A DNA stretch of 38,203 bases, from positions 1 to 38,203 of the forward strand of contig JAPYOG010000290.1 of NCBI GenBank assembly GCA_028278785.1, in the 5' to 3' direction. A program made the position numbers and the translations under genes. The number at the start of each line of letters is the position of its first letter. Position 1 is the first letter of the stretch. Shown here in pieces: positions 29,259 through 34,115 of the stretch. The DNA is from Candidatus Poriferisocius anaerobius (GTDB taxonomy: Bacteria; Actinomycetota; Acidimicrobiia; Acidimicrobiales; Bin134). Under the pieces are notes generated by a model that did not search any database, was not told where the DNA came from, and was given only the letters and a program-made list of their open reading frames with translations.

Positions 29259-29343
29259 GTCGGAGTGGCGGAATTGGCAGACGCGCTAGCTTGAGGGGCT
29301 AGTGCCCAATATGGGCGTGGGGGTTCAAGTCCCCCCTCCGACA
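29259..29343 (+). tRNA. tRNA-Leu (anticodon GAG)
   Basis: The 85-nt sequence folds as a class II tRNA. The acceptor stem pairs GTCGGAG with CTCCGAC. The anticodon stem CTAGC/GCTAG encloses the loop TTGAGGG with anticodon GAG. A long variable arm (GCCC/GGGC) and a T-arm GGGGG-TTCAAGT-CCCCC follow. CCA is not encoded. It reads Leu CTC/CTT codons. The accessory-looking region of the window starts just after it. Confidence 0.95.
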
Positions 29344-29405
29344 CTGACGGGGTGGTGTTCCCGCCGCACGCATGGACCGTGCCCGAACCTCGACACCGGC
29401 GTCTG

Positions 29406-29419: not shown

Positions 29420-31108
29420 ATGGATGAGTTGCCAGTTTCTGGCCGTGGTTTTCGACTGCTGCTCGGCGCGGTCGTCTTGTTGGTTTTGGTGGTTGTCGTG
29501 CAGGCGGTCTTGTTGATCGTGCTGGCAGTTGGCGATTCGGAGGGGGAGGGTGGTTCGGCTTCCCCGTTGGGAGTGCCCCCTGCCGTTCCCCCCATTCCGG
29601 TCAGCGCAGCCGCGGTCGGCGGTGAAGCGGGCGCGCCTGAGGAAGCGGGGAATCCCGTTTCTGTGTTGTCGGGGGCGGTTCACTATGTCACCTATCTGGC
29701 CGAGCAGGGTTTTGTTCCTGAGCGCTTGGAGGTCGAGGTTGGGGAGACGGTGGTGTTTGTGAATGCGTCGGGCGCGGATTTCTGGCCGGCTTCAAATATT
29801 CATCCGACGCATGAGATTCTGCCCGCGTTCGATTCGCTGGGGCCGGTTCCGGCGGGGCAGGCATGGGAGTTCGTGTTCGATGAGGCGGGCCAGTGGCAAT
29901 ACCACGACCATCTGTACCCGCCCGAGGGCGGTGTGGTCATCGCTGTTGAGGCCGTTGCCGCCGAACCCGGCGCCGGAGAGGGGTTGGGAGAGGCTGTGGA
30001 TGGGGAGGCCGGCAGCGGCGATCTCGGCCCGCGGGGCGAGCTGGGGCCGCTGGTGATCGAGATGCCCGATGTTGAGTTCGCCGAGCTTGCCGGGGACGCG
30101 GCTGACCGCTATTCGGGGATCTATGCCGACGACGGTGAACTCGAGCGGGTCGTCGAGGAGTTCGGGCCGTCGAACGCTCTGAGGATTCTCAAAGCCATCG
30201 AGCTCGAGACCAGCGGAGACTGTCACAACCGTGCTCACGATGCCGGACGGATTGCCTATGAGCTGTTCGGACCCGCAGCGTTCGCGCTGGCGTCCCATGA
30301 GTGCCAGTCGGGCGGTTTCCACGGTGCGACCGAGGCGCTGTTCGCGAGCCGCGGCACCGCGAGCCTTGCCGAGGATGTGGCTGTTTTGTGCTCAGATGCC
30401 CCTAACCCGTTTATCCGCCACCAGTGCCTGCACGGGATCGGGCACGGGATCATGGCCTGGTCGAACTACGAGCTGCACCAGTCGCTGGAGTTGTGCGACG
30501 CGATTGCCGCATCGCTGGACCAGCAGTCCTGCTACTCGGGGGTGTTCATGGAGAACGTGGTCGGAGGGCTCAGCGGCCTCATGGGCCACACCACCGAGTA
30601 CCTGCGCCCCGACGACCCCGTCTATCCGTGCGACGTGGTGGCCGACCGGTACCGGGCCGACTGCTACTTCTACCAGACCTCTCACATGGTCCGAGTGCTC
30701 GATTACGACATGGCCGCGGTCGCCCAGACCTGCACCGAGGCCCCGGCGGGCTCGGCCTATCACTGCTTCGGGTCATACGGTCGAGATGCCGCATCCTTCG
30801 CCCAGAACGACCCCGCTGCCTCGATCGAGCACTGCAAGCACGCCCCGACCGCTGATCTGAACGCGGCATGCACGCGCGGGGCCGTGCAGAACGGCTTCTG
30901 GGAAAAGCCCGGAGCGCCGCGGGCGGTGCAGTACTGCGCGCTGTTGGACAGCGACCCCCAAAGTCATCCGGTGAGTCGGGAAGTCTGCTACCAGACCATC
31001 ACCGACAGAGCACGCGACGTCTTCGGAACAGCCGAGGAGTACGAGCAGTTCTGCGCTCAGCTACCAGCCGACCGCCACGCCGCTTGCCGCCAAACACTCG
31101 GCTTGTAG
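29420..31108 (+). CDS. Membrane-anchored cupredoxin fused to a Cys/His-rich domain of unknown function
   Basis: A 562-residue protein with one N-terminal membrane anchor (about 12-37), so the rest should be outside. Residues about 85-177 form a cupredoxin-like domain (FVPERLEVEVGETVVFVN, FWPASNIHPTHEILPAFD, WQYHDHLYP); His128, His131, His162 and His164 are candidate copper ligands. An acidic linker leads to about 300 residues rich in Cys and His: 16 cysteines and motifs CHNRAHDAGR, HECQSGGFHGATEAL, RHQCLHGIGHGIM, CYSGVFMENV and YHCFGSYGRD. Repeated HG/GHG next to Cys suggests metal or haem binding, or a disulfide-rich enzyme. I do not recognise a named family. TAGAAT lies 8 nt before the ATG. 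Confidence 0.72.
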   Translation: MDELPVSGRGFRLLLGAVVLLVLVVVVQAVLLIVLAVGDSEGEGGSASPLGVPPAVPPIPVSAAAVGGEAGAPEEAGNPVSVLSGAVHYVTYLAEQGFVPERLEVEVGETVVFVNASGADFWPASNIHPTHEILPAFDSLGPVPAGQAWEFVFDEAGQWQYHDHLYPPEGGVVIAVEAVAAEPGAGEGLGEAVDGEAGSGDLGPRGELGPLVIEMPDVEFAELAGDAADRYSGIYADDGELERVVEEFGPSNALRILKAIELETSGDCHNRAHDAGRIAYELFGPAAFALASHECQSGGFHGATEALFASRGTASLAEDVAVLCSDAPNPFIRHQCLHGIGHGIMAWSNYELHQSLELCDAIAASLDQQSCYSGVFMENVVGGLSGLMGHTTEYLRPDDPVYPCDVVADRYRADCYFYQTSHMVRVLDYDMAAVAQTCTEAPAGSAYHCFGSYGRDAASFAQNDPAASIEHCKHAPTADLNAACTRGAVQNGFWEKPGAPRAVQYCALLDSDPQSHPVSREVCYQTITDRARDVFGTAEEYEQFCAQLPADRHAACRQTLGL

Positions 31109-31167: not shown

Positions 31168-31824
31168 TCAGGGGCCGAGGGCCGTGATGGGGGTGACCTG
31201 GACGCCGTCGGGGCGGGTATAGGCGAAGCCCAAAGCGGTGATGACCACCATGGCGACAAGCTGTTCGGCGCGGTCAGCAGCCACCTTGTCGCGCACGCGT
31301 CGCAGCGACTGGGCCGCGGCCTCGATCGCGTCGCCGCCCCCCAGCTTGACCTCTACTGCAAGCCACCTCCCGTCGGGCACCTCGACGATGGCGTCGGCTT
31401 CGGTGCCCGCAGCGTCGCGCAGCTGGAAGATGCGCCCGTCGTGGGGCTGCGCTAGGACGCGCAGATCCCTCACAACGAGTGACTCGAACAGCAGGCCGAG
31501 TGCGGACATATCGCCCATCAGCCGCTCGGCATTGGCGCCGAGAGCGGCAGCCGCTAGCGATGGATCGGCCAGATGCCACTTGGCCGACTTCCGCAACGGT
31601 GCCCGAGAACGCAGGCGGACCGACCACGCGGGCTGTTCTTCGACCACGAATATCCGCCGCAACGCGTCGAGGTAGGCGCGAACCGTGTGGCGGTGCAGCG
31701 GATCCGGCTCCGCATCCGCGCCCAGCGTGCTCATGCTGGCTTCGGTCGCAACGTTTCGCGCCAGCGACTGGAGCAACCGCTCCACACCGGCGGGACTTCG
31801 CACGGCGCCATCGCCGACGAGCAC
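31168..31824 (-). pseudogene. 3' fragment of a DUF4143 AAA ATPase gene
   Basis: The 218 codons match the C-terminal half of the widespread AAA ATPase plus DUF4143 family. Visible are the DUF4143 helical part (GVERLLQSLARNVATEASMSTLG, VRAYLDALRRIFVVEEQPAW, KWHLADPSLAAAALGA, LFESLVVRDLRVLA) and the nuclease-like end (FQLRDAAGTEADAIVEV, WLAVEVKLGGGDAIEAA). The N-terminal ATPase with Walker motifs is absent; just upstream, two in-frame stops (TAG TAG) interrupt the frame. It is therefore a truncated remnant. The residual reading frame may still be translated. Confidence 0.78.
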
Positions 31825-32671: not shown

Positions 32672-33232
32672 ATGCGGTTGGAACGGGCTGTGGGCTATGG
32701 CGCGCTGGTCAGCACCGGCGTACTCATTGCCCACGCATTCGGCTATCTGATCGCCTATTCCAGCGCTGCCGACCGCAGCATTGCTCTGGCCGGACACGCC
32801 TACTTTGGCCCGACAGCCTGGGTGATCATCCCGCTGGCCTCGCTGCTCATCGCCGCGGTGGTGGTCCGGGCCGCAGCTCGCAGCGCGGTCGCCGGGTTCC
32901 GGCCGGGAGTGGTGTCGGCTGCTGTTATGGCCGGATTCTTCGCACTCGAGGTACTGGAGCGCGTACCCGCCGGTGAGCACCATGCCGCGTTCACCGAGCC
33001 CGGCGTGGTAGTCGGCCTGATCCTGTCGCTTCCAGTGGGATGGGTGCTGGCCAAGCTCGCCCGAAGCATCGAGCGCATTGTCGAGGCCATCGTCAACAGC
33101 TCCCGGCGCCGGTGGTCCCGCCAGGTGGTGCTGGCCGCCCTAGTCGAGGCACTGGCGGCAAACATTGGGCGGTTCTTCAGCCTGCTTCCCTCTCCCCGCG
33201 GTCCTCCCGGGCTGCGTGTTCTGACCATCTGA
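32672..33232 (+). CDS. Four-TM membrane protein, unknown function
   Basis: A 186-residue protein with four membrane segments (about 8-28, 46-68, 78-96 and 110-128) and a basic cytoplasmic C-terminus. HAFGYLIAYSS in segment 1 and ERVPAGEHHAAFTEPG in the last outer loop supply several His residues. It starts 18 bp after the SRAP remnant with its own leaderless promoter and lies 31 bp before the lipoprotein gene, so the two likely share a transcript. A role in metal handling with the lipoprotein is inferred from position only. Family not recognised. Confidence 0.65.
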   Translation: MRLERAVGYGALVSTGVLIAHAFGYLIAYSSAADRSIALAGHAYFGPTAWVIIPLASLLIAAVVVRAAARSAVAGFRPGVVSAAVMAGFFALEVLERVPAGEHHAAFTEPGVVVGLILSLPVGWVLAKLARSIERIVEAIVNSSRRRWSRQVVLAALVEALAANIGRFFSLLPSPRGPPGLRVLTI

Positions 33233-33263: not shown

Positions 33264-34115
33264 ATGAAATCAACTCGCTATGCGCGGGGGCTGGTCGGCC
33301 TGCTGGCCATTCTCGGCTTGCTGGCCGCCGCCTGCGGCAACGACGACACTGTGGGACCGGCGCCGACGACCGACCCCACAATCGCCCCCGAGACCCCGCA
33401 ACCCACTGCCAGCCATTCTGACGAAATGGCCATGGAGGAAACCGACGACGATCACGACCGCGATCGCGGACACGACCACACCACTCTGATGGAGGTGGGC
33501 TACGAACCGGTGCCCACCATCGAGCTCAAAACCCACCTCGACCCCGCATCGGGCGTCAACCTCGAGATCATTACGACTGGCTTCACCCTGGCGCCTGAAA
33601 GAGCCTCGACCGACCCGGTCGACGGAGAAGGGCACTTCCACATCTATGTGGACGGGGTGAAGCTCAGGCGGACGTACGACCATTGGGCCCACGTCGGTCT
33701 CAAGGAGCCCGGCGACTACGAAATCCGAGTGGAGATGTCGGCTAACAACCACGCCCCGCTAGCGGTGAACGGAGAAATCCTCGATGCCACCGCCGTGGTG
33801 ACCATTACCGGTGCTGCTGAGGATTCTGAACCCATGGAGATGGAGGACAGCGTGGGTACCACCATCGAGCTAGAGGTGGTTGGCGGCAAACCGGTGGACG
33901 GGGTGCAGCGCTTCGGGGTCGACGCCGGAGACGACGTCACCATCGTCGTGAACGGCGATACCACCGACGAGCTCCACTTCCACGGCTACGACTTGGTGGT
34001 GCCCTTCGCTCCGGGACAGCCCGGCACCATCACTTTCGAGGCCAACATCCCCGGCATCTTCGAGGTGGAGACCCACCACCACGGTGATCTGGTGATGGAG
34101 CTCCAAGTGGGATGA
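33264..34115 (+). CDS. His-rich lipoprotein with cupredoxin-like C-terminal domain
   Basis: A 283-residue exported lipoprotein: N-terminal signal with a lipobox ending LLAAAC (Cys24). A low-complexity linker follows with the metal-binding-looking DDDHDRDRGHDH (61-72). A first beta domain (about 85-182) contains GHFHIYVDG and YDHWAHVGLKEPGDY. The second (about 198-283) resembles cupredoxins: DELHFHGYDLVVPFAPG, FEANIPGIFEVETHHHGDL and ELQVG. AGAGGAG lies 7 nt before the ATG. It sits between a four-TM protein and the remnant of a polytopic membrane protein. Copper or another transition metal is the likely ligand; this is inferred from the domains. Confidence 0.8.
   Translation: MKSTRYARGLVGLLAILGLLAAACGNDDTVGPAPTTDPTIAPETPQPTASHSDEMAMEETDDDHDRDRGHDHTTLMEVGYEPVPTIELKTHLDPASGVNLEIITTGFTLAPERASTDPVDGEGHFHIYVDGVKLRRTYDHWAHVGLKEPGDYEIRVEMSANNHAPLAVNGEILDATAVVTITGAAEDSEPMEMEDSVGTTIELEVVGGKPVDGVQRFGVDAGDDVTIVVNGDTTDELHFHGYDLVVPFAPGQPGTITFEANIPGIFEVETHHHGDLVMELQVG

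Follow-up and report, generated by a model that had tools for sequence, protein, structure and literature searches.

A Cys/His-rich helical-repeat domain shared by several bacterial phyla and associated with proteins of copper handling and respiration

Deoxyhypusine hydroxylase (DOHH), a HEAT-repeat enzyme, is an example of a diiron centre housed in an alpha solenoid. Amicyanin, plastocyanin and purple cupredoxin hold type 1 copper in a beta-sandwich. In Bacillus subtilis, the CopC-CopD protein YcnJ carries an extra soluble domain that helps to assemble CuA (PMC13344008), and copper-insertion factors for cytochrome c oxidase are among the subjects of a review (PMC9145763). In EfeO, a cupredoxin is followed by an all-alpha, metal-binding M75 domain (PMC9174327).

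Here we describe a gene from Candidatus Poriferisocius anaerobius, probably a marine sponge symbiont judging by the record names of its close relatives, in a window of 38,203 nucleotides (the whole stretch of DNA that was analysed). As in EfeO and EfeM, its product places an extracytoplasmic cupredoxin ahead of an all-alpha domain with conserved His, and some relatives follow the order of the YcnJ-type CopC-CopD-YtkA importers (PMC13344008, PMC12362106), namely CopC with the Cu(II)-site motif, CopD and an extra soluble C-terminal domain. In these relatives, however, the extra domain is a predicted disulfide-braced alpha solenoid standing in the place of YtkA, to which they gave no match, and in the window protein the partner is a cupredoxin rather than CopC-CopD. 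Unlike EfeO, the helical domain is a repeat solenoid with 14-16 Cys and has copper neighbours rather than iron ones; Pfam Peptidase_M75 matched neither the window protein (E<=1) nor 31 members (E<=0.01), the invariant motif is HGxxE (HxxxE spacing) and not the HXXE of EfeO, and EfeO 7wgu stood at rank 29 in the Foldseek list of the full-length model (query TM 0.12). The likeness to DOHH lies in the idea of metal ligands on the inner helices of an alpha solenoid, whereas the helical domain is exported and disulfide-rich, has no HE dyads among its conserved columns, and no HEAT model matched the window protein at E<=1. In layout the domain resembles the extra domain of YcnJ and EfeO, and it belongs to neither family.

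The window gene and its protein

The reading frame is open and intact (Table 1), and an alternative in-frame ATG upstream at 29372 would give a product of 578 aa. Because orthologues occur elsewhere in the genus and the motifs hardly vary among 71 non-redundant members, the gene is not a chance reading frame. In the full-length AF2 model, the membrane helix is connected by a linker of low confidence to a beta-sandwich, which a second linker joins to an all-helical part. The first-pass annotation, made from the letters of the sequence, had described a membrane-anchored cupredoxin lacking the copper Cys and fused to a large Cys/His-rich domain, and its account of the protein was accurate: the count of 16 Cys, His128, His131, His162, His164 and the YHDHLYP loop are exactly as stated. 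The domain spans about 330 residues, and all the Cys lie between residues 268 and 556, with none in the cupredoxin.

Table 1. Features of the window gene and of one possible functional neighbour
Feature	Position	Strand	Details and basis
Coding sequence, 562 aa	29420..31108	+	TM anchor, linker, cupredoxin, linker, (very probably) disulfide-braced helical domain
Transmembrane anchor, residues 8-36	29441..29527	+	Helix in AF2 full-length model; hydrophobic run; conserved
Cupredoxin domain, residues 86-178	29675..29953	+	Foldseek, amicyanin sequence match, conservation
New Cys/His helical-repeat domain, residues 227-559	30098..31096	+	AF2 pLDDT 92.5, pTM 0.89; no family, PDB sequence or PDB fold
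C268-H269-xxx-H273 to C295, HxxxH pair and putative C268-C295 disulfide	30221..30304	+	H269 66/69, H273 69/70
H301-G-xx-E305, candidate metal-ligand pair	30320..30334	+	H301 69/70, E305 56/70
H338-G-x-G-H342-G-x-M345, candidate metal-ligand group	30431..30454	+	H338 71/71, H342 71/71, M345 53/71
M377-E378-N379	30548..30556	+	M377 64/71, E378 57/71, N379 53/71
His-rich cupredoxin-like lipoprotein, separate gene, possible functional neighbour	33264..34115	+	Weak NosZ C-terminal matches

The cupredoxin part shares its beta-sandwich fold with the type 1 copper proteins, as seen in the Foldseek matches of the full-length model to purple cupredoxin 5fc9 (E 3.9e-4, target TM 0.78) and plastocyanin 1bxu (target TM 0.83), and amicyanin aligned to it by sequence (E 1.6e-4). 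In this alignment H128 pairs with the first of the type 1 His ligands in amicyanin; Asp163 takes the place of the Cys, and the Met and the second His are gone. None of the 15 aligned cupredoxin-fused members has lost any of the four His, and each has Asp or Asn at the type 1 Cys position. In contrast to type 1 cupredoxins, the window cupredoxin carries HPxH and HxH in place of the lost second His and Met; the His-Cys-His-Met set of type 1 ligands is absent from it, and a role as a blue-copper electron carrier was rejected on that account. Its HPxH and HxH appear closer to the type 2/3 His ligands of multicopper oxidases.

Within the window there is no adjacent copper gene except for an uncertain lipoprotein gene, which the first-pass annotation had correctly placed 2.2 kb downstream and whose notable similarities are confined to weak matches of its last ~85 residues to the C-terminal cupredoxin part of nitrous-oxide reductase (NCBIfam E 3e-5, PDB E 0.02). 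It is preceded by the gene of a 186-aa membrane protein (32672-33232). A tRNA-Leu(gag) gene (29259-29344) lies just upstream of the window gene, and the orthologue in genome G018, at 86% identity, has neighbours different from those in the window; for these two reasons, the window gene may owe its present place to an insertion near that tRNA gene. A DUF4143/AAA ATPase gene, which may mark a mobile region, adjoins domain genes in several genomes of the genus, namely in the window (31168-31824, shortened) and at loci L020 (621-1856), L018 (6054-7319) and L019 (4553-5809).

Fold and conservation of the helical domain

The claim that the domain has no recognised family held under profile search, in which no Pfam-A or NCBIfam family matched the window protein even at E<=1. 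Among 31 members, no Pfam match to the helical domain appeared at E<=0.01, and the one NCBIfam match, in a single domain member (E 0.009), was a chance one. No relative was found among PDB sequences, and Foldseek against PDB folds returned generic binding solenoids only (best E 4e-3, query TM <=0.32 among the matches listed). A known enzyme family was rejected, none being present in Pfam, NCBIfam or PDB sequences, and a literature search, with subscription papers mostly outside its scope, gave no description of the domain. A c-type heme was likewise discarded, as neither the window domain nor the conserved columns contain CxxCH; the CxxCH of locus L063 sits in a separate cytochrome domain.

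The AF2 model of the domain is an alpha-hairpin solenoid in which long helices alternate with short ones. Conserved Cys lie at the ends of the short helices and near the starts of the long ones that follow, and four consecutive long helices carry the conserved His and Met, at offsets from the Cys that recur (H301, H342 and M377 all lie at Cys+6). Such a register is what a metal site common to neighbouring repeats would give, and it suggests that the invariant His could cluster into one site, a clustering read from the repeat register only.

Conservation was assessed in a wide set of 71 members under 90% identity and in a narrower alignment of 31 members, whose domain numbering plus 217 gives the protein numbering. 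In the latter, H52, H56, H84, E88, H121, H125, M128, M160 and most Cys are invariant; in the former, divergent as its members are, the five His H269, H273, H301, H338 and H342 are conserved at 96-100%. The Cys behave as pairs: C268 and C295 are both present in 52 members, both missing in 17 and single in none (p 1.7e-16, uncorrected for relatedness), and C438 and C449 both present in 63, both missing in five and single in none. Because the pairs are so strictly gained and lost together, which is strong evidence for pairing, the Cys of the domain are very probably structural disulfides. The Cys cannot be upheld as metal ligands, as had been proposed, for the pairs vanish together while the His mostly stay. 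Among the 17 members without C268/C295, 14 keep the five His, so the His are held by something other than the C268-C295 disulfide; in two others H269 is the sole difference, and L078 lacks H269, H273 and H301. Two features had been named in advance as speaking against a metal-loaded domain, namely Cys in simple disulfides and scattered His; the former is very probably the case, and the latter is not, the invariant His occupying set places.

Fusion partners, gene neighbours and distribution

Homologous ORFs number 92 distinct ones in Actinomycetota, Chloroflexota and Patescibacteria, a few of which are gene fragments or stem from a single broken gene read in two frames, and two plasmid copies come from Gemmatirosa (Gemmatimonadota) and the cultured Kitasatospora purpeofusca. 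The distribution of the domain is wide but patchy: it occurs in 15 of 296 sampled genomes of Actinomycetota, 14 of 287 of Patescibacteria and one of 251 of Chloroflexota (the seed itself, further Chloroflexota loci coming from another search), and in only three of 296 sampled genomes for the window's own class. No phage matched the domain, and a phage origin was rejected for this reason. In some Patescibacteria genomes of about 0.8-1.1 Mb there are as many as 8 or 9 copies, a large share for genomes of this size, and many of them stand in tandem gene arrays. These arrays, tandem and diverging, contain up to 7 domain copies, for example at L074 (5 tandem copies), L113 (4508-15850) and L114-L116, and even there H273, H301, H338 and H342 are near-invariant.

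The expectation that copper or respiratory partners would recur was borne out by both the fusions and the neighbours of homologues. Cupredoxin fusions occur in Actinomycetota, Chloroflexota and Patescibacteria and in both orders, several with Pfam Cupredoxin_1 above the curated cut-off. The cupredoxin is N-terminal to the domain in the window, L028, L033, L065 (Pfam E 9e-9), L067 (1e-9), L069 (1e-6) and, twice, L114, and accompanies two domain copies in L092/L113; it follows the domain in L093/L120, where it was read from the sequence of a protein wholly without Pfam match, and probably in L036, where the contig end cuts the gene. CopC-CopD precedes the domain in 15 non-redundant Actinomycetota members that form one clade (99% SH-aLRT); L020 matched CopC at E 8e-12 and CopD at E 2e-8, and the copper-site motif of CopC, with its N-terminal His and DGHxxxG, is kept in the 22 CopC fusions listed. 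Single fusions to a cytochrome c (L063, E 8e-9) and a peptidoglycan-binding domain (L080, E 3e-8) indicate that the role may extend beyond copper. The Gemmatirosa copy has a His/Met-rich segment, HNTPHDMPHAAAGGHASHEMH, ahead of the domain, while other members carry a TM anchor or lipoprotein signal only, and a fused copper domain is missing from many of the Patescibacteria copies. On the tree, which came from a quick search and has several long Patescibacteria branches, the cupredoxin label requires several changes, so that this fusion has probably been gained, or lost, more than once.

A family-level search of 22 genomes found orthologues in other genomes of the genus at 86%, 69% and 55-58% identity and, close upstream, paralogues of ~31% identity inside ORFs of ~810-830 aa; the window genome, 84% complete, yielded no second domain copy. 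The operon of the genus comprises a CopC-CopD-domain gene, a membrane-anchored cyclophilin gene (E 1e-27 in L020) and then the cupredoxin-fused gene. In three related genomes, a Ser/Thr protein kinase gene (L131, 4367-6103; L132, 4004-5749; L133, 4997-6565) immediately precedes the CopC-CopD-domain gene; the family search for the kinase covered L131. On the Kitasatospora plasmid pKP058, the domain gene KPHV_86690 stands directly before a CtaG gene (PF09678, E 7e-74), of a protein type that serves copper insertion into cytochrome c oxidase, and near genes for a BlaI/MecI/CopY regulator, M56, CcsB (cytochrome c biogenesis) and CopD-YtkA. DsbA-like or thioredoxin/DsbD genes near domain genes of Chloroflexota and Patescibacteria (L033, L035, L115, L074) are in keeping with an exported protein rich in disulfides. 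P-type ATPase neighbours (L080, L120, L140) were dropped as evidence, not being specifically of the copper type by NCBIfam cut-offs.

Candidate functions

We would give about an even chance to the view, built on sequence comparison, that the helical domain is an extracytoplasmic metal-handling module, most likely for copper, because of the cupredoxin fusions in three phyla, the CopC-CopD fusions that keep the copper motif, and the Kitasatospora cluster. Under such a scheme, the TM helix would keep the module membrane-bound, copper would be captured by the His-only cupredoxin, and the helical domain, its repeats stiffened by the putative disulfides, would receive this copper, store it or hand it to an acceptor, either a CopD-type importer or cuproenzyme assembly; His and Met of successive long helices would form one or two metal sites, and the layout would be comparable to that of YcnJ with its extra YtkA domain and of EfeO with its Cup and M75 domains. 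Weighing against this view are the absence of any copper gene next to the window gene other than the uncertain lipoprotein gene, the many Patescibacteria copies in tandem arrays with no copper fusion, and the single cytochrome c and peptidoglycan-binding fusions. More tentatively, the inner helices with HxxxH, HxxxE, HxxxH and Met might build a di- or multinuclear copper centre, an undescribed class of metal site which several phyla could use as a plug-in for copper importers, cupredoxins and cytochromes and which could be arrayed in Patescibacteria.

The same ligands might instead serve a metal-dependent redox enzyme, with HxxxH, HxxxE and HxxxH of three successive long helices holding a mono- or dinuclear centre that exchanges electrons with the cupredoxin or a cytochrome c. 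The i,i+4 pairs of three adjacent helices together with the near-invariant Met of a fourth, the fusion in L063 and the precedent of DOHH would suit such an enzyme, yet we regard it as unlikely, since a fused cupredoxin devoid of the type 1 Cys in every aligned member would be a poor electron carrier, the CopC-CopD fusions suggest copper uptake, and the neighbours give no clue to a substrate. Nor do we find it probable that the domain is a surface-binding, disulfide-rich solenoid without metal, in which His and Gly are structural (helix packing, capping) and the copper fusions deliver or dock it on other proteins. The diverging arrays of small Patescibacteria genomes, where many copies lack a fused copper domain and could suit binding proteins, the many copies with a bare anchor or signal and the Foldseek likeness to binding solenoids all speak in its favour; it leaves the recurrent copper partners unexplained, however, and the His that persist in the arrays mostly stay where C268-C295 is lost. 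That the domain binds another metal or cofactor, iron or heme, much like EfeO in the uptake of ferrous iron, with the cupredoxin oxidising or gating that metal, seems to us quite improbable: the two-part layout does parallel EfeO (PMC9174327) and CcsB is encoded in the Kitasatospora cluster, but M75 gave no match at the E-values tried, HxxxE replaces HXXE, and no EfeU/EfeB-type genes were noticed near the loci read.

That one domain recurs in several phyla, either fused to copper and respiration proteins or encoded next to them, probably points to an unrecognised metal-handling part outside the membrane, and the cultured host Kitasatospora purpeofusca HV058 (KPHV_86690) makes the domain testable at the bench. 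If the copper reading is true, the new domain would lengthen the short list of extracytoplasmic parts known to handle copper and would offer a testable function for 'hypothetical' genes in several phyla, including the ultra-small Patescibacteria.
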